Below the pieces are notes generated by a model. That model made no database searches and was not told where the DNA came from. It saw nothing but the letters and a program-made list of their open reading frames with translations. Of a stretch of DNA of 36,803 bases, positions 10,302-21,971 are shown in pieces (the first letter of the stretch is position 1; every line of letters begins with the position of its first letter). Location of the stretch: positions 1 through 36,803 of the forward strand of contig JAUYAO010000007.1 in assembly GCA_030692565.1 (NCBI GenBank), given 5' to 3'. This stretch comes from Nitrospira sp. (lineage in GTDB: Bacteria > Nitrospirota > Nitrospiria > Nitrospirales > Nitrospiraceae). The position numbers were made by a program, and so were the translations under genes.

Positions 10302-10378
10302 GGGCCCATAGCTCAGGTGGTTAGAGCGGCTGACTCATAATCAGCTGGTCCTAGGTTCAAGTCCTAGTGGGCCCACCA
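10302..10378 (+). tRNA. tRNA with CAT anticodon, probable tRNA-Ile2 (lysidine type)
   Basis: A full cloverleaf with encoded CCA. The acceptor GGGCCCA pairs with TGGGCCC, the D arm is GCTC/GAGC, the anticodon stem GCTGA/TCAGC surrounds loop CTCATAA, and the T arm CTAGG/CCTAG encloses TTCAAGT. The anticodon CAT is at 10336-10338. It is not an initiator, because the first pair is G-C. Acceptor pairs C4-G69 and C5-G68 match those of the AUA-decoding tRNA-Ile2 whose C34 is turned to lysidine by TilS. An elongator tRNA-Met reading remains possible. Confidence 0.9.
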
Positions 10379-12906: not shown

Positions 12907-13347
12907 GCGCGAGAGAGGAGACTGGGTGATCGCTCGGCACCTTGTGTGCCGGGAGGAAAGTCCGGACTCCATGGGCGGGGCGCTGGGTAATTCCCAGGCG
13001 GAGTAATCCGACACCTGCACCACAGAAAACAAACCGCCGATGGCCAAGGCGACGGGATCCCATCTCGTCGCTACGGATCAGGTAAGGGTGAAACGGCGGG
13101 GTAAGAGCCCACCGCAGGGATGGTGACATCGCTGGCACGGTAAGCGTCGCCCGGTGCAAGGCCAAATAGGAAGACACGTGCGGTGCTCGCAAGGGCACGG
13201 CGCAACGACTGGCCCGGTCGAGGTCTTCGGGTAGGTCGCTCGAGGTTCGGGGTAACTCGAATCCCAGAGAAATGATCACCCAGGCATGAACTCCGGTTCA
13301 TGCGGGACAGAATCCGGCTTATAGGTTTCCTCGCTCGCGCTTTTTTT
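12907..13347 (+). ncRNA. rnpB: RNase P RNA (class A), with intrinsic terminator
   Basis: The catalytic RNA of RNase P, which matures tRNA 5' ends. The universally conserved core GAGGAAAGTCCGGACTCC lies near 12952-12969. The matching 3' core is ACAGAATCCGGCTTATAGG near 13307-13324, so the P4 strands are present. GGTAAGGGTGAAACGGCGGGGTAAGAGC and similar blocks in the middle also fit class A RNAs. Helix P1 is formed by GCGCGAGAGAGG (12907-12918) with CCTCGCTCGCGC (13329-13340), one mismatch. T7 follows at once, so the 3' strand of P1 doubles as the terminator stem. No protein gene is read here. Confidence 0.96.
13329..13347 (+). terminator. Rho-independent end of rnpB
   Basis: CCTCGCTCGCGC (13329-13340) pairs with the 5' end of the RNA about 410 nt away and is followed by seven T. 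The stem is long-range rather than a local hairpin. The position and U-tract suggest this is where the transcript ends, though a purely local terminator hairpin is not visible. Confidence 0.55.
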
Positions 13348-13413
13348 GTGTTAAGCGGTGCTTCAATTGTTCTCCTCGGCTGTGCTGATGAGGGGGGATG
13401 GCCCTGGCGGCTC

Positions 13414-13442
13414 TTGACCCTCATCTAGCGTGGTGTTAGGAT
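13414..13442 (+). promoter_or_regulatory. Candidate promoter of the ilvBNC-psd-pssA operon
   Basis: TTGACC (13414-13419) and TAGGAT (13437-13442) are separated by 17 nt. They match consensus at five and four positions. The start would fall near 13449, leaving a leader of about 124 nt. In that leader I see no clear attenuator, T-box or leader peptide rich in branched-chain codons, only a repeated TGGCCA (13487-13492 and 13505-13510). Confidence 0.55.
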
Positions 13443-13572
13443 CTCGCATTCTTTCCTATTGATATTGCACAAATTTCCGTGTGGATTGGCCAGAGGTTCT
13501 AGGATGGCCATTTCGTGAAGGGCTGCACGTTCTTGAAAACAGTACTCCGGGCATCCGGGGGAGGGAAACGAT

Positions 13573-15348
13573 ATGAAGCTCAACGGGTCTGAGATATTGA
13601 TCGAGAGTCTCAAGCGGGAGGGGGTCAAAACGATCTTCGCGCTTCCCGGTGGCGTGGTCCTCAAGATATTCGACATGCTCCATCAGCAGAAAGACATAGA
13701 CGTCATCTTGACGCGGCATGAACAGGGTGCCGGCCACATGGCCGAAGGCTATGCCAAAGCGACGGGGAAAGCAGGCGTGTGCTTGGTGACGTCCGGTCCC
13801 GGCATGACCAACGTCATTACCGCCTTGGCTGATGCCTACATGGACTCCGTTCCGTTGGTCTGTTTCAGCGGCCAGGTGCCCACGAGCCTGATCGGCAACG
13901 ATGCGTTTCAAGAGGCCGACAATATTGGATTGAGCCGACCTTGCACGAAGTACAACTTCCTCGTGAAGGACGTCAACGATCTCGCGATGACCATTAAAGA
14001 GGCGTTTTATATCGCGACGACAGGCCGCCCGGGTCCCGTCCTTGTCGATATTCCCAAAGACGTCTCGATGGCCACAGCCGAATTTGTCTACCCCACCTCC
14101 GTCTCAATTCGGGGGTATAACCCGACGTACGACGGCAACAAGTGGCAGATCAAGCAGGCGGCCGAAGCCATCATGAAGGCCAAGAAGCCGATTCTCTATG
14201 TCGGTGGCGGCGTCGTGTTTTCAGGCGCCTCGGCCGAATTGATCGAGCTGGCGGAACTGACGCAAATCCCGGTCGATATGACCCTCATGGGGCTCGGGGC
14301 ATTTCCGGGAGAACACCAGCTCTCCTTGGGGATGCTGGGTATGCACGGCACCTATCAGGCCAACATGGCCATGCACTATTCTGATCTTGTGATTGCAATC
14401 GGGGCGCGCTTTGATGACCGCGTGACGGGAAAGGTCTCGGAGTTCTGTCCTCATGCCAAGGTCATTCATGTCGATATCGATCCGACATCGATCAGAAAGA
14501 ACATCAACGTCGATATTCCGATCGTCGGGGATTGCAAGACCGTTCTGCGGGAGCTGAATCAGATTCTCCGCGCGTCGGTCAACGGGGAACAGAAGGAATT
14601 ACGAAAGCCCTGGTGGAAGCAAATTCGTGAGTGGGAATCCGCTCATCCGTTGTCGTATCAGCAGGATGCGGACGGACCGATCAAGCCCCAGCATGTGGTG
14701 AAGCGGTTGTATGAACTGACGAAGGACCGGGACCCGATCGTTTCAACCGATGTGGGCCAACATCAGATGTGGGCCGCCCAATATTTCAAGCTGGCCAAGC
14801 CGAATCGCTGGTTGACGTCCGGTGGGCTGGGGACCATGGGCTTTGGGTTTCCCGCGGCGATGGGCGCGCAGGCGGCGTTTCCCGGTCGGTTGGTGCTGTG
14901 CATTGCGGGGGACGGCAGCATTCAGATGAATATGCAGGAGATGGCCACGGCGGTGGTAAGCAAGCTTCCTGTGAAGATCATCGTACTGAATAACCGGTTC
15001 CATGGCATGGTCCGGCAGTGGCAGGATTTGTTCTACCAGGGCCGCTATGCCTCCAGCGACCTCGAGAATACTCCGGACTTTGTGAAGTTGGCAGAAGCCT
15101 ATGGGGCCGTCGGGTTGCGCGCGAACAAGGTGGGCGATCTCGACGCGGTGCTTAGGGAAGCCATCGCGGTGGATGGGCCGGTGATTGTGGATGTGCCGAC
15201 CTATCGTTTTGAAAACGTGTATCCGATGATTCCGGCCGGAGGGTGTAACCACGAGATGATCTTGGAAGATCCGCCGGAGTTGAAAAATAAACAGGCGAGC
15301 ACATCCAAAGTGACGCCGGACGGTACCGATACCGTCCTGACCGCCTAA
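13573..15348 (+). CDS. ilvB: Acetolactate synthase, large catalytic subunit
   Basis: A 591-residue thiamine-diphosphate enzyme that condenses pyruvate to acetolactate (or with 2-oxobutyrate to acetohydroxybutyrate), the first common step of valine, leucine and isoleucine synthesis. The catalytic Glu50 lies in TRHEQGAGHMAEGYA. A central FAD-binding domain follows. The ThDP/Mg motif GDGSIQMNMQEMATA with NNRFHGMV near 474-479 is in the C-terminal third. The ATG at 13573 is preceded by GGGGGAGGG. The regulatory subunit gene ilvN follows after 11 nt. Length and domain order are normal. Confidence 0.97.
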   Translation: MKLNGSEILIESLKREGVKTIFALPGGVVLKIFDMLHQQKDIDVILTRHEQGAGHMAEGYAKATGKAGVCLVTSGPGMTNVITALADAYMDSVPLVCFSGQVPTSLIGNDAFQEADNIGLSRPCTKYNFLVKDVNDLAMTIKEAFYIATTGRPGPVLVDIPKDVSMATAEFVYPTSVSIRGYNPTYDGNKWQIKQAAEAIMKAKKPILYVGGGVVFSGASAELIELAELTQIPVDMTLMGLGAFPGEHQLSLGMLGMHGTYQANMAMHYSDLVIAIGARFDDRVTGKVSEFCPHAKVIHVDIDPTSIRKNINVDIPIVGDCKTVLRELNQILRASVNGEQKELRKPWWKQIREWESAHPLSYQQDADGPIKPQHVVKRLYELTKDRDPIVSTDVGQHQMWAAQYFKLAKPNRWLTSGGLGTMGFGFPAAMGAQAAFPGRLVLCIAGDGSIQMNMQEMATAVVSKLPVKIIVLNNRFHGMVRQWQDLFYQGRYASSDLENTPDFVKLAEAYGAVGLRANKVGDLDAVLREAIAVDGPVIVDVPTYRFENVYPMIPAGGCNHEMILEDPPELKNKQASTSKVTPDGTDTVLTA

Positions 15349-15359
15349 GGCATTCGAAT

Positions 15360-16948
<1,589 letters not shown>

Positions 16949-16962
16949 AAGGGGCGAGCCCT

Positions 16963-17613
16963 GTGGCTGATCGTGCCGTCGGTGTCCCGTTTGCCAAAGA
17001 GGGGTTTCCCTTCATCGGTGCGGCAGCGGGCGTTACACTCTGTGCTGGATGGATGGGTTGGACGCCGGTTGCCGCGGTGGCGGCTGGTCTGACACTGTTC
17101 GTGTCGTGGTTTTTCCGCAACCCCGCGCGGGTGATTCCGGAAGGCTCTGGACTGATCGTGGCGCCAGGCGACGGGAAAATCATTGCCATCGAAGAAGAGT
17201 TCGAGCCTCGCTATCTCAAGGACCGCAGCCTCCGGGTCACGATCTTTCTGAACGTGTTCGACGTTCACATCAACCGGATTCCCTGCGAAGGGGTCATTGA
17301 AGATGTGCAGTACCAGCCGGGACTCTTTTTGGTTGCCAGTAAGCCGGAGGCGACGATCAAGAATGAGCAAAATGCGCTGATGATTCAAGCGGCCAGCGGT
17401 GCAAGGGTCTTGTGCGTGCAAGTGGCGGGGCTCATTGCCCGGCGCATTGTCTGCTGGGTCTCCCCTAAAGATCGGGCAAAGCTCGGAGAGCGGTTTGGTT
17501 TGATCCGATTTGGTTCGCGGATGGACACATTTCTTCCCATCGGTACGAAACTCAGAGTGGCCGTTGGAGATCGTGTGAAAGGCGGAGCAACCATCTTGGG
17601 AGACCTACGATGA
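16963..17613 (+). CDS. psd: Phosphatidylserine decarboxylase, short type
   Basis: A 216-residue proenzyme that makes phosphatidylethanolamine from phosphatidylserine at the membrane. Two hydrophobic segments at about 15-31 and 35-50 anchor it. APGDGK near 67-72 and NVFDVHINR near 97-105 contain the conserved Asp and His. RFGSRMD, with Gly184-Ser185, is the self-cleavage site that yields the pyruvoyl cofactor. This GS-type small form is distinct from the longer LGST form of E. coli. Translation begins at a GTG (16963). The stop overlaps pssA by 4 nt (ATGA), so the two enzymes of the pathway are coupled. Confidence 0.95.
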   Translation: MADRAVGVPFAKEGFPFIGAAAGVTLCAGWMGWTPVAAVAAGLTLFVSWFFRNPARVIPEGSGLIVAPGDGKIIAIEEEFEPRYLKDRSLRVTIFLNVFDVHINRIPCEGVIEDVQYQPGLFLVASKPEATIKNEQNALMIQAASGARVLCVQVAGLIARRIVCWVSPKDRAKLGERFGLIRFGSRMDTFLPIGTKLRVAVGDRVKGGATILGDLR

Positions 17614-18413
17614 AGGGAAACGGCTTGCGACAATCGTTGGGGAAGGAAGCGCGGAAACGTCAGGCGATGCATCTGATTCCCAATCTCTTCACGACGGGGA
17701 ACCTGTTTTGCGGTGTCTATGCCATCCTGTCTGTCTTCAATGCCAACTATATGGCGGCAGCGATTGCCATTTTGGTCGCAATGATTTTCGATGTGTTGGA
17801 TGGAAAGTCGGCCCGACTGACGAACAGCACGAGCCATTTCGGATTGGAGTATGACTCCCTGTCCGATGTGGTGTCGTTCGGTGTCGCCCCGGGTCTCCTG
17901 ATCTACTCCTGGGCGCTGAGCGGACAAGGTATGTTCGGTGTCGCCGTGATGTTCGCCTATGTCGCGATGGGGGCGGTCCGGCTCGCGCGTTTCAATTCAA
18001 CGGTCGCGCTGGCTGACAGCAAGTACTTCACCGGGTTGGCGATTCCCGCGGCTGCCGGAGTGGTCGCGTCGCTGGTGATTCTCGACCATCATATTGTCCG
18101 GATGGGGACGGAAGTGAAGCCGGTGTTAGTGTTGGTCATCACGCTCGCTCTTTCCTTCCTCATGGTTAGTACCGTGAAGTATCGCAGCTTCAAGGATATG
18201 AAGTTCAAAGGCCGCCAGCAGATTACCTATCTAGTGTGGGGCATTCTTGCGCTCATGATGATTGCGGCCTGGCCTGAGGTGATGCTGTTTGTGGTATTTT
18301 CGGGCTATGCGTTGATGGGACCGACCGAACGATTGTTCTGGTTGATGGCGAAAGCCGTTGGGAAGAAACCTCTTTCCAAGTCTGACCAGCCTGTGATAGA
18401 ACCCAAATCGTAA
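17610..18413 (+). CDS. pssA: CDP-diacylglycerol-serine O-phosphatidyltransferase
   Basis: A 267-residue integral membrane enzyme that joins serine to CDP-diacylglycerol and releases CMP, giving phosphatidylserine for Psd. The CDP-alcohol phosphatidyltransferase signature DGX2ARX8GX3DX3D is exact: D64-G65, A68-R69, G78, D82, D86. About six to seven hydrophobic segments follow one another through the protein. The start overlaps the psd stop. The stop codon is directly followed by the T-box leader of leuA, so the ilv-psd-pssA transcript could also run into leuA under T-box control. Confidence 0.95.
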   Translation: MKGNGLRQSLGKEARKRQAMHLIPNLFTTGNLFCGVYAILSVFNANYMAAAIAILVAMIFDVLDGKSARLTNSTSHFGLEYDSLSDVVSFGVAPGLLIYSWALSGQGMFGVAVMFAYVAMGAVRLARFNSTVALADSKYFTGLAIPAAAGVVASLVILDHHIVRMGTEVKPVLVLVITLALSFLMVSTVKYRSFKDMKFKGRQQITYLVWGILALMMIAAWPEVMLFVVFSGYALMGPTERLFWLMAKAVGKKPLSKSDQPVIEPKS

Positions 18414-18420
18414 GGCGACG

Positions 18421-18670
18421 ACGAGGAGTAGTAGGCGAGCCGCACAGATTTGAGAGAGCCGGCGGGTGGTGCAAGCCGGTCTGTGTGTCGCCGAACTCGC
18501 CTCTGAGCCGAATCCGTGAACCCCGAGTAATGGATTCCGCTTCGCTCCCGTAAGGGGCCAATGAAGGGTGATGGATGACCGGATGTCATTCGTTGCCGAA
18601 CCAGGGTGGTACCACGAAGCGCGCGAAGCCTTCGTCCCTGACCGTAATGGGGGGGGCGAAGGCTTTTTCT
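18421..18670 (+). promoter_or_regulatory. Leucine-type T-box riboswitch controlling leuA
   Basis: The RNA senses uncharged tRNA-Leu. Stem I: GAGG (18423-18426) pairs with CCTC (18500-18503), and GGCGA (18434-18438) pairs with TCGCC (18488-18492). Between them is an internal loop with AGTA (loop E, 18427-18430) opposite GAACTCG. The codon CTC at 18496-18498 (Leu) is the specifier. Higher up, CACAGA/TCTGTG and GCCGG/CCGGT carry the typical GGTGCAAGCCGG apex. The T-box AGGGTGGTACCACG is at 18603-18616. Antiterminator: AGGG (18603-18606) pairs with CCCT (18636-18639), a 7-nt bulge TGGTACC follows, and ACGAAG (18614-18619) pairs with CTTCGT (18630-18635). The fourth bulge base T suits the A discriminator of tRNA-Leu. 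Confidence 0.95.
18626..18668 (+). terminator. T-box terminator hairpin, exclusive with the antiterminator
   Basis: AAGCCTTCG (18626-18634) pairs perfectly with CGAAGGCTT (18657-18665), extended by TCCC(T) with the G run at 18652-18656, and the T tract ends at 18668. The segment CTTCGTCCCT (18630-18639) is shared with the antiterminator, so only one of the two can form. Without bound uncharged tRNA, transcription should stop here. Confidence 0.9.
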
Positions 18671-18674
18671 ATTT

Positions 18675-18841
18675 GAGGCTGCTGAAAAAGCTCCCCTGCA
18701 GTGTTCTCGGTCATTCGACCCCTTCGACGTACTGCGGCAGTACGCCTTGGGATCGCCCTCTCTGCCGCCTGCCCGTGGAGCGGCGCGTCTCGGCGCGCCG
18801 GGGCTGGGTGGGTGAGAACGGGGGCCTGTTTGAGCATCCTG
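18675..18841. repeat. Palindromic REP/MITE-like element between the T-box and leuA
   Basis: About 167 nt bounded by imperfect 22-nt terminal inverted repeats, 18675-18696 and 18820-18841, with 16 matching positions. Nested inside are GTTCTC/GAGAAC (18703-18708 and 18814-18819) and a perfect 8-bp palindrome with one central base, CGTACTGC-G-GCAGTACG (18728-18744). The unit therefore can fold as one long broken hairpin. No target-site duplication is evident and no protein is encoded. It resembles short dispersed repeats I associate with Nitrospira genomes, but only one copy is seen in this window. Confidence 0.6.
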
Positions 18842-18866
18842 ATGGAAGCGTGAGGGAGGAGAAACC

Positions 18867-20414
18867 ATGGAACGGATGATTCGCATTTTCGATACGACGT
18901 TGCGCGACGGCGAGCAGTCGCCCGGCGCCAGCATGAACGTGGAAGAGAAAGTCATGGTGGCGAAGCAGCTGGCGCGGCTTGGGGTCGATATCATCGAAGC
19001 CGGCTTTGCCTACAGTTCGCCCGGAGATTTTGAGGCGGTTCGCCGGATTGCGTTGGAGGTTGAGGGACCGACGGTCTGCAGTCTGGCGCGGGCTCGTCCG
19101 GAGGACATCGATCGGGCCTGGGAGGCGCTCAAAGGCGCGCCGAAGGCCAGGATTCATACGTTCCTCTCGACGTCCGACATCCATTTGAAGCATCAGTTCA
19201 GGATGACGCGGGAAGAGGCCAGGAAGCGTGCGGTCGAGATGGTGCAGCGCGCGCGGAGCTATATGCCGGACGTGGAGTTCTCGCTGATGGATGCGAGCCG
19301 CTCGGACCAGTCCTACGTCTATGAGGTCATTGAAGCGGTGATTGCTGCCGGGGCGGGAACGATCAATATTCCCGATACGGTGGGCTATGCCGTGCCGCAA
19401 GAGTTCGGCGCGTTGATCAAAGGGATTTTCGACAAAGTGCCGAATGCCAAGCAGGCCGTGATTTCAGTCCACTGCCACAACGACTTGGGTGTCGCTGTGG
19501 CGAATAGTTTAGCGGCGATCGTCAATGGCGCGGGCCAGGTGGAGTGCACGATCAACGGGATCGGCGAACGGGCCGGCAACACGTCGCTGGAAGAAATCGT
19601 CATGGGGCTCCGGACCCGGAAGGACTTTTATCAGGCCGATACCGGCATCCGGACGGAGGAGATTGCCAAGACGAGCCGGTTGGTGAGTAAGATTACCGGC
19701 ATGGTCGTGCAGCCGAACAAGGCCATCGTCGGTGCGAATGCGTTCGCTCACACGTCCGGGATTCACCAGGACGGGCTGTTGAAGGATAAGACGACCTACG
19801 AAATCATGCGGCCGGAATCGATCGGGTTGATCGAGAGCAAGATGGTCATGGGCAAGTTGTCCGGGCGTCATGCATTCCGGCAGCGATTGGATGATTTGGG
19901 GTACAAGCTCAGCGAGGAAGAGCTCAACCATGCTTTTGAACGTTTCAAGAAGCTGGCCGATCAAAAGAAGGAAATTTTCGAAGAAGATTTAGAAGTGATT
20001 GTGTCGGAAGAGTTGGCCAAGATGACCGAGCGGATTGTGTTGAAATCGTTCCATGTCGAAAGCGGCACGAATCTCGTACCGACGGCGACGGTGGAATTGA
20101 ACATTGACGGACAAGTGATCAAGGAATCAGGCACCGGCGACGGGCCGGTCGATGCGGTCTATCGGACGATTGCGGCCATCACGAAGACGAAGAGTAAGCT
20201 GTTGATGTTCGGCGTCAACGCCATTACCGGCGGGACAGATGCGCAGGGAGAAGTCTCCGTGCGCGTGGAGGAAGACGGCCGCACGGTCTCGGGTCATGGA
20301 GCCGATACGGATATCATCATGGCCGCGGCCCGGGCGTATCTCAATGCGTTGAATCGACTCGCGTATATGGCATCGAAACAGGCAGAGGGAGAGCAGAAAG
20401 TCCGCTTGATTTGA
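18867..20414 (+). CDS. leuA: 2-Isopropylmalate synthase
   Basis: A 515-residue enzyme that condenses acetyl-CoA with 2-oxoisovalerate, the first committed step of leucine synthesis. The HMGL-like TIM barrel begins with [17 protein letters not shown]. The metal site is in [13 protein letters not shown] near 200-212, followed by [13 protein letters not shown]. Residues 390-515 form the C-terminal leucine-binding regulatory domain. The ATG at 18867 is preceded by GGGAGGAG. Expression should be set by the T-box upstream and activity by leucine feedback. The gene is separated from the T-box terminator by about 198 nt that mostly hold the palindromic element. Confidence 0.97.
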
Positions 20415-20447: not shown

Positions 20448-20481
20448 TGTCCGCAAGTGCCGGTTGGTTTAGTTGCGGACA
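20448..20481. repeat. Perfect 9-bp inverted repeat between leuA and the cupin gene
   Basis: TGTCCGCAA (20448-20456) and TTGCGGACA (20473-20481) are exact inverse complements separated by 16 nt. No T tract follows, so it is not a standard terminator. It could be an mRNA hairpin or an operator. It overlaps the alternative GTG start of the cupin gene and favours the ATG at 20499. Confidence 0.6.
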
Positions 20482-20498
20482 GGTTGGGGTTGTCTCCC

Positions 20499-20861
20499 AT
20501 GCTCAAGCGCACTCTCTTGGAATGCCCTGAATTTCTTGCCGGAGACCATACGGTTCTTCGCGAACTGTTGCATCCGGCCAAGCAGCCGGTGCAGCTGGGT
20601 TACAGTCTTGCGCATGGCCGATTGGCTCCCGGCTGCCGGTCTAAGCGGCACAAGCTGGCTTCGTCAGAGGTGTACTACTTTATCGCCGGGCAGGGCCGCT
20701 TCAGTATCGGGAGTGAGACCGAGCTCGTCGAACGCGGATCCATCGTGTACGTGCCGCCTGGGGGGAATCAGTCGCTGGAAAACATTGGTACGACGGAAAT
20801 AGAATTTTTGTGTCTGGTTGATCCGGCCTGGCGGAGTGAGGATGAGCAGGTCGAGGAGTAG
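20499..20861 (+). CDS. Small cupin-domain protein
   Basis: A 120-residue single-domain cupin. The beta-barrel motifs are visible as HGRLAPGCRSKRHKLASSEVYYFIAGQGRF and GSIVYVPPGGNQSLENIG. The first has H and E ligands as in metal-binding cupins, and the second replaces the usual late histidine with N-Q. The substrate is unknown. I take the ATG at 20499 as start because residues after it look conserved and a 9-bp hairpin precedes it. A GTG at 20457 would add 14 residues. It lies between leuA and leuB, 36 nt upstream of the latter, so it should be co-expressed with leucine synthesis. Confidence 0.85.
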   Translation: MLKRTLLECPEFLAGDHTVLRELLHPAKQPVQLGYSLAHGRLAPGCRSKRHKLASSEVYYFIAGQGRFSIGSETELVERGSIVYVPPGGNQSLENIGTTEIEFLCLVDPAWRSEDEQVEE

Positions 20862-20897: not shown

Positions 20898-21971
20898 GTG
20901 AAAGCGAAGATTGCAGTCTTAGCGGGTGATGGAGTCGGGCGTGAGATTGTTCCCGAAGCGGTCAAGGTGTTACAGGCTATCGGAGAGAAGTATCAACACT
21001 CGTTTGAATTCACCTCGGCCGACATTGGCGGACAAGCGATCGACAAAGTGGGTGTGCCGCTGCCGCACGAAACCTTGGCATTGGCCAAGCAAAGCGACGC
21101 GGTATTGCTGGGAGCGGTTGGGGGGCCCAAATGGGAAGGGTTGGAGTACAGCCTTCGTCCTGAGCGGGCGCTGCTGGGTATCCGCGAGGCCTTAGGGTTG
21201 TATGCCAATTTACGTCCCGCCAAGGTATACCCCAATCTGGTTGATGCTTCGACGTTGAAGCGCGAGGTGATCGAAGGGATCGATATTCTCGTCGTGCGAG
21301 AGCTGACCGGCGGCATCTATTTCGGGAAACCGAAAGGGATTGAAAAGCTGCCGAACGGCGAAGAGCGCGGAGTGAACACCGAAGTCTACACGACCGAAGA
21401 GATTCGCCGGATCGGCAAGGTGGCCTTCGAAGCGGCGCGCAAGCGGCGGAAAAAGGTCACGTCGGTCGATAAGGCGAATGTGCTGGAGTCGTCCGAGTTG
21501 TGGCGTCGTGTGATGATCGAGGTGCAGAAGAGTTATCCGGACGTCGAGTTGCATCACATCTATGTCGACAATGCCGCGATGCAATTGGTCCGCAACCCGC
21601 GCCAGTTCGATGTCCTGGTGTGCAACAATATCTTCGGAGATATTCTGAGTGACGAAGCGGCCATGCTGACCGGATCGATCGGCATGCTGCCGTCGGCCAG
21701 TATCGGCGCCAAGGTCGGATTGTTCGAGCCGATCCATGGTAGCGCGCCCGATATCGCGGGAAAGAACATCGCGAATCCCATTGCGACGATTGCCTCTGTG
21801 GGCATGATGTTGTCCTACGCGTTCAAGCTCGAGAAAGAAGCCGAAGCAATCGAGCAGGCCATCGTCAAAACGCTCGATATGGGATACCGCACCAAGGACA
21901 TTCAGAGCCCGGGAACCAGAGTCGTCGGCACGACCGAGATGGGCGACGCCATTCTTCGCAATTTAAACTGA
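20898..21971 (+). CDS. leuB: 3-Isopropylmalate dehydrogenase
   Basis: A 357-residue NAD-dependent decarboxylating dehydrogenase of leucine synthesis. It opens with [18 protein letters not shown]. Substrate-binding residues lie in [14 protein letters not shown] and the signature [25 protein letters not shown] is near 240-264. The NAD-site string is [21 protein letters not shown]. The start is a GTG at 20898 with AGGAAGGAG 10-18 nt upstream. leuC and leuD, the isomerase genes needed between LeuA and LeuB, are not in this window. Confidence 0.97.

Follow-up and report, generated by a model that had tools for sequence, protein, structure and literature searches.

A class I leucine T-box between pssA and leuA in Nitrospira

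Main finding

The leuA gene of a Nitrospira sp. is preceded by a class I (transcriptional) T-box, located at 18414-18668 (+) of the window, the whole stretch of 36,803 nucleotides that was analysed. The identity of this segment as a T-box can hardly be doubted. It very probably responds to the charging state of tRNA-Leu(GAG) and governs transcriptional read-through to leuA, both tRNA binding and read-through being predicted from sequence. This explanation is based on the anatomy of the leader, its conservation and covariation, the gene order and a matching tRNA gene. A leuA T-box of this kind is already known from Geobacter; the predicted internal position within an operon and the exchange of sensors among related families are the parts of interest.

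Architecture of the leuA leader

The Rfam T-box model RF00230 matches 18409-18642 (+) of the window over all 219 model positions with 96.5 bits (gathering score 93, E 3.5e-20). A covariance search of the leader had been proposed in the first-pass annotation, which placed a leucine T-box at 18421-18670 in a Nitrospirota-like genome. Location and lineage are confirmed, but stem I starts at 18414 and the T-run ends at 18668. The motifs named there are all present: AGTA facing CTC, the T-box motif AGGGTGGTACCACG, a two-helix antiterminator, the 7-nt TGGTACC and a terminator sharing CTTCGTCCCT with the antiterminator. Leucine specificity likewise holds, given the CTC specifier and leuA as the target.

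Stem I is of full length, and AGTAGTA (18427-18433) faces GAA-CTC-G in the specifier loop. AGAGA and GGTGGTG align to the RF00230 consensus, and their columns are largely invariant across leaders. The distal bulge and the apical loop of stem I (Table 1) are presumably the contacts with the tRNA elbow. With a full stem I and an intrinsic terminator at 18627-18668, the leader differs from the translational type (class II), in which an ultrashort stem I goes with an anti-sequestrator in place of a terminator.

Terminator and antiterminator are mutually exclusive, having 18630-18638 in common. Folded separately, the antiterminator structure reaches -15.2 kcal/mol and the terminator structure -26.0 kcal/mol. 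The same genome carries a tRNA-Leu(GAG) gene (L069) with discriminator A and a CCA end, i.e. an ACCA terminus, to which the UGGU of the leader is complementary.

In the proposed mechanism, the CUC specifier of stem I would read the anticodon of tRNA-Leu(GAG), and the distal loops would hold the tRNA elbow. The ACCA end of uncharged tRNA would pair with UGGU in the bulge and stabilise the antiterminator, allowing the polymerase to enter leuA; read-through may extend to the cupin gene and leuB. With leucine-charged tRNA, the stronger terminator would form and transcription would end at 18668.

Table 1. Coordinates of the leuA leader and of neighbouring genes in the window
Feature	Position	Strand	Basis or remark
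Promoter-like site TTGACC-17-TAGGAT, upstream of ilvB	13414-13442	+	Candidate promoter of the whole ilvB to leuA run
ilvB, acetolactate synthase large subunit	13573-15348	+	TPP-enzyme N, M and C domains; precedes ilvN; name inferred
ilvN, acetolactate synthase small subunit	15360-15878	+	TIGR00119 above cut-off
ilvC, ketol-acid reductoisomerase	15932-16948	+	TIGR00465 above cut-off
psd, phosphatidylserine decarboxylase	16963-17613	+	NF003678 above cut-off
pssA, CDP-diacylglycerol-serine O-phosphatidyltransferase	17610-18413	+	TIGR00473 above cut-off
T-box stem I	18414-18509	+	RF00230 alignment, coordinates; all five helices covary
Stem I base helix	18414-18416/18507-18509	+	
Stem I helices	18423-18426/18500-18503; 18434-18438/18488-18492; 18441-18447/18481-18487	+	
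Stem I distal bulge AGAGA	18453-18457	+	Sequence and RF00230 alignment
Stem I apical helix	18458-18463/18475-18480	+	
Stem I apical loop GGGTGGTGCAA	18464-18474	+	Sequence and RF00230 alignment
Specifier CTC	18496-18498	+	RF00230 alignment; fits leuA and tRNA-Leu(GAG)
Stem II, internal-loop strands GTGAA and AGTAA	18510-18537	+	
Stem III	18567-18597	+	
Antiterminator	18602-18640	+	Helices 18602-18606/18636-18640 and 18614-18619/18630-18635
T-box motif AGGGTGGTACCACG	18603-18616	+	Sequence
T-box bulge TGGTACC, 7 nt, in antiterminator	18607-18613	+	Invariant among aligned leaders
Intrinsic terminator and T-run	18627-18668	+	12-bp helix 18627-18638/18653-18664, then TTTT
Dispersed palindromic repeat between terminator and leuA	18676-18841		Outside the T-box
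leuA, 2-isopropylmalate synthase	18867-20414	+	Regulated gene; NF002086 and TIGR00973 above cut-off
Cupin-domain protein	20457-20861	+	PF07883; possibly co-transcribed with leuA
leuB, 3-isopropylmalate dehydrogenase	20898-21971	+	TIGR00169 above cut-off; possibly co-regulated

Distribution and covariation

A survey of 395 genomes of the phylum yielded 125 matching genomes (E ≤ 0.001), with 58 above the cut-off and 24 of 169 genera represented. The window's family (f1) accounted for 108 of them. Two f1 genomes among those listed were without a match; leuA is broken by the contig start in one and missing from the assembly of the other. The other matches came from families f6 (2), f9 (4), f15 (3), f16 (5) and f19 (3), and none of the T-box matches of this survey belonged to the sister family f2. 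In total, 126 T-box loci were obtained from the 125 genomes, G316 contributing two pieces at contig ends. The specifier is always a leucine codon, CTC at 123 and CTG at 3 of the 126 loci. Downstream of the T-box lies leuA in 122 cases, and the remaining four loci end at or near a contig end. The CTG specifiers occur in L017, L132 and L022 (f1g10, f1g8); the T-boxes of L017 and L022 are otherwise intact. Additional T-boxes in the window's own genome were considered and rejected, as a search at E ≤ 0.001 returned a single RF00230 match, in agreement with the claim that the T-box sits on leuA only.

An exact pattern scan of named genomes matched at least 118 stretches. The matches listed include Nitrospira, relatives of Geobacter and Desulfuromonas, Paenibacillus, Cohnella and other Firmicutes. 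Among them are also a few titled Chloroflexi, Sumerlaeota and Omnitrophota, a wider range than the Firmicutes and some deltaproteobacteria initially named for such T-boxes.

Covariation in homologous leaders, a further point of the first-pass annotation, was assessed in 70 leaders aligned with MAFFT, using the pairing structure of the window. They were taken from 77 de-duplicated leaders after omission of L004, L005, L006, L007, L008, L020 and L142 (long linker inserts or contig ends). In an earlier step, 40 of 124 leaders had been set aside for stem I inserts, an ultrashort stem I or a start missed by the script, and L123 and L165 had been dropped because the regular expression did not match their T-box motif. 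Standard pairs occupy 92.3% of 3777 cells, compared with a shuffled mean of 81.0. Structures slid by 1-3 columns gave 30-46% paired cells, in a comparison favouring the unslid version, because the pairing scheme was derived from the window itself. Two-sided changes were found at 39 of 55 pairs and in 521 cells, against a shuffled mean of 176.3. Stem II is paired in 98.0% of its cells, with two-sided changes at 5 of 6 pairs, and stem III in 82.3%, with such changes at 11 of 13. The two antiterminator helices are paired in 99.4% and 99.5% of cells. For the terminator helix, the value was 96.8% versus 95.3 in shuffles, with two-sided changes at only 3 of 12 pairs; this weaker support is due to the little variation in the helix. 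Exclusive helices that stay paired over the 70 leaders support the transcription attenuation that had been proposed.

Another reading would combine chance hairpins with a terminator that simply ends transcription of pssA, as the terminator by itself would resemble an operon end. It is refuted by the full-length covariance match, the covariation and the overlap of the terminator with a conserved antiterminator, and its probability is negligible. A decayed T-box remnant that has lost regulation would fit a score just 3.5 bits over the gathering score and a sister family, f2, that seems to have lost its T-box. However, the specifier, the T-box bulge and both the antiterminator and the terminator are intact, the helices are maintained by two-sided changes among relatives, and the T-box occurs in 108 of 110 f1 genomes listed, the other two being assembly gaps. 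Decay is consequently very improbable, and a functional T-box is the preferred reading.

Operon context and promoters

The genes ilvB, ilvN, ilvC, psd and pssA, the T-box and leuA follow each other head to tail. The leuA product has one close match in the genome, the next best being 29% identical. The pssA stop codon TAA occupies 18411-18413, and stem I starts at the next base (gap 0 nt). At 57 of the 108 f1 loci, at most 6 nt separate stem I from the pssA stop, and at 67 at most 20 nt. The distance amounts to 21-62 nt in 34 loci, leaving some room, and is longer in 7; in 6 of these 7 (109-127 nt), the stem I start was misset inside a repeat, which misplaced the promoter scan as well.

Promoters were scanned with the sigma-70 consensus only (maximum score 12), and the 108 f1 loci are related rather than independent. 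Before the f1 T-boxes, a sigma-70-like score of ≥10 was reached at 0 and ≥9 at 1 of 108 loci. The best scores averaged 6.34 and 6.54, compared with 6.39 and 6.75 in shuffled sequences. In a control with the genome's own tRNA genes, 12 of 30 scored ≥9 and 6 of 30 scored ≥10. The region 13300-18900 contains one sigma-70-like site, upstream of ilvB, compared with a shuffled mean of 2.1, so that the site by itself is not above chance. It scores 9/12, below the threshold of 10 applied before the T-box. A site scoring 9/12 upstream of ilvB recurs in 12 of 13 named loci, one of them from f9 (mean 8.8 versus 6.3 in controls of the same length).

Since stem I adjoins the pssA stop and no promoter was found before the T-box, the transcript most likely starts upstream of ilvB. 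A single transcript from ilvB, on which the T-box would form an internal leucine valve of ilvBNC-psd-pssA-leuA, is the probable arrangement as judged from the sigma-70 scan. Expression of the operon would always supply the common branched-chain genes, and the leucine branch would be added only under leucine shortage. Such a valve, if true, would separate the shared supply of branched-chain precursors from the leucine branch within one transcript.

The same T-box may instead be transcribed from a promoter of its own within the 3' end of pssA, which would make leuA an independent leucine-controlled unit. Leaders of the same kind often show a strong promoter just in front of stem I: a score of ≥10 was reached at 6/6 f9, 4/5 f16, 28/36 Firmicutes and 12/32 deltaproteobacterial loci. 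The f9 promoter overlaps the pssA end or lies about 40 nt after it. Family f1 is not alone in lacking a promoter match, as none of 7 loci from f6, f15 and f19 reached 10 either. Against an own promoter in f1 stand the scores at shuffled level before the T-box and the location of the sole sigma-70-like site of 13300-18900 upstream of ilvB. An own promoter in f1 is rather unlikely. The first-pass annotation had assigned ilvBNC a separate promoter, for which the conserved promoter-like site upstream of ilvB speaks. Its conclusion that leuA and ilvBNC are separately controlled units is not supported, given the abutting pssA stop and the lack of a convincing sigma-70 promoter before the T-box at the 108 loci.

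The repeat between the terminator and leuA matches the genome at 21 places, its own position included, and folds to -80.1 kcal/mol. An RNase P RNA (class A) was located by Rfam at 12914-13337, just upstream of ilvB, and a tRNA gene (RF00005) at 10302-10375. The Rfam E-value search of the window gave nothing further except a sub-threshold Plastid-ycf2 match opposite this tRNA gene, probably chance or tRNA-like sequence.

Variants of stem I

In 13 f1 loci (L136, L137, L146, L150-L154, L156-L158, L162 and L165), stem I is enlarged in its 5' arm by about 60-130 nt of inserted sequence; 12 of these loci belong to the window's genus and one to f1g7. In 20 further loci of the window's genus, the arm is about 20 nt longer. 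The T-box of the window has no such repeat in stem I. The 126-nt insert of L137 is MITE-like, a repeat lying within a helix of the riboswitch. It folds to -51.0 kcal/mol with its ends paired, matches 29 times elsewhere in its own genome, and has 4 to 37 matches in each of 17 of the 19 genomes of the genus. The ends of the dispersed repeat in the 5' arm pair as CAGAATGTT/AACATTCTG, and close relatives have a shorter hairpin at this place. An extra hairpin in the stem I apical loop, between GGTGG and GGTGCGAACC, was observed in L164, L184 and L213.

Family f9 has a T-box in 6 of 7 genomes, the seventh being without. The leuA T-boxes of these genomes (L285-L290) combine a stem I of about 4-6 bp with an intrinsic terminator. 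They are preceded by TTGACA-17/18-CATAAT or TATCAT, a strong sigma-70-like promoter. The f9 T-boxes are without the distal part of stem I; in L285, 47 positions of the RF00230 model are skipped with 3 nt left.

A possible leucine sensor in the sister family f2

In f2, leuA was located in 43 of 48 genomes, and 40 loci (L291-L300, L311-L340) were taken, leaving out G409, G414 and G415. In 15 of the 40 loci, Rfam was searched up to E 1 without a match. Leaders were analysed for 39 loci, L336 being excluded for the absence of a pssA stop. A terminator-like GGCTTTTT together with a small ORF was present in 23 of the 39, and 16 were without such a terminator. The ORF starts ≤8 nt after the pssA stop in 22 of the 23. 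Its leucine content exceeds that of the best shuffled ORF (p ≤ 0.05) in 17 of 23 leaders, with p values uncorrected and sequences related. Many of the peptides resemble MDQWQGKGR..LLL..LTLA.LLK. The pattern resembles leucine attenuation mediated by the ribosome, predicted for the same slot between pssA and leuA.

A LeuA tree of 60 rows was rooted at the midpoint. In it, one branch (support 98/92) has the 45 Nitrospirota rows together on the same side, and 12 deltaproteobacterial rows stand apart from them (100/99). Horizontal acquisition of leuA and T-box by Nitrospira from deltaproteobacteria was rejected on this tree. Families f1 and f2 fall together (97/97), f2 standing beside two f1 rows with a CTG specifier (89/81). 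This placement suggests that the T-box was lost in f2.

It was proposed that the f1 T-box lost its own promoter and became an internal valve of an operon of ilv, phospholipid and leu genes, fused to the pssA end, and that the pssA-leuA junction is a slot exchanging leucine sensors at an unchanged place of control. The slot would hold a full T-box in f1 (with a mobile repeat in some), an ultrashort transcriptional T-box in f9, and a leucine-rich peptide with terminator in part of f2, no attenuator being seen in other f2 members. The chances of this scenario are rated as even. Sister families with a T-box or a peptide in the same slot before a vertically inherited leuA would be a natural case of RNA sensor replacement.

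Comparison with known systems

The leuA T-boxes of Geobacter metallireducens (Gmet_P1265) and G. sulfurreducens (GSU1906.1) are predicted readers of tRNA-Leu(GAG) (excerpt of PMC2700814), and the T-box of the window resembles them in target and tRNA. Several deltaproteobacterial loci share with the window pssA, psd and ilvC upstream of the T-box. In the named deltaproteobacterial loci with a pssA stop, stem I mostly follows after 52-133 nt, and a strong promoter match precedes it in 12 of 32 loci, compared with 0 nt and no promoter match in the window.

CUC is the specifier of 74% of the leucine T-boxes in TBDB (excerpt of PMC7778990). The window shows this usual specifier and all core parts of class I T-boxes (RF00230/TBDB). 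Unlike those behind their own promoter, its T-box directly adjoins the upstream gene's stop codon. No T-box report for Nitrospira or Nitrospirae was found in open-licence papers. Control of leucine synthesis by a T-box is predicted throughout this widespread nitrifying lineage.

The ilv-leu operon of Bacillus subtilis carries a tRNA-Leu T-box, and Staphylococcus aureus ilv-leu a leucine-rich attenuator peptide where relatives use a T-box (both from an excerpt of PMC5794164). Window and B. subtilis have in common a leucine-responsive T-box in the synthesis of branched-chain amino acids. The B. subtilis T-box controls the entire operon, whereas that of the window, downstream of ilvBNC, would control only leuA and later genes. 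S. aureus provides a precedent for the exchange of T-box and peptide in f2, although its peptide is placed at the operon start and the predicted f2 peptides lie between pssA and leuA.

An ultrashort stem I is tied to translational T-boxes, and transcriptional ones are said to need a long stem I (excerpt of PMC7583486). The f9 T-boxes share the ultrashort stem I, yet have a clear intrinsic terminator, unlike the translational type. With their leaders it could be examined whether tRNA elbow contact is dispensable for a transcriptional T-box. An ultrashort stem I, a terminator and a strong promoter were likewise observed at the leuA T-box of L262 (record JACQBZ010000060.1).
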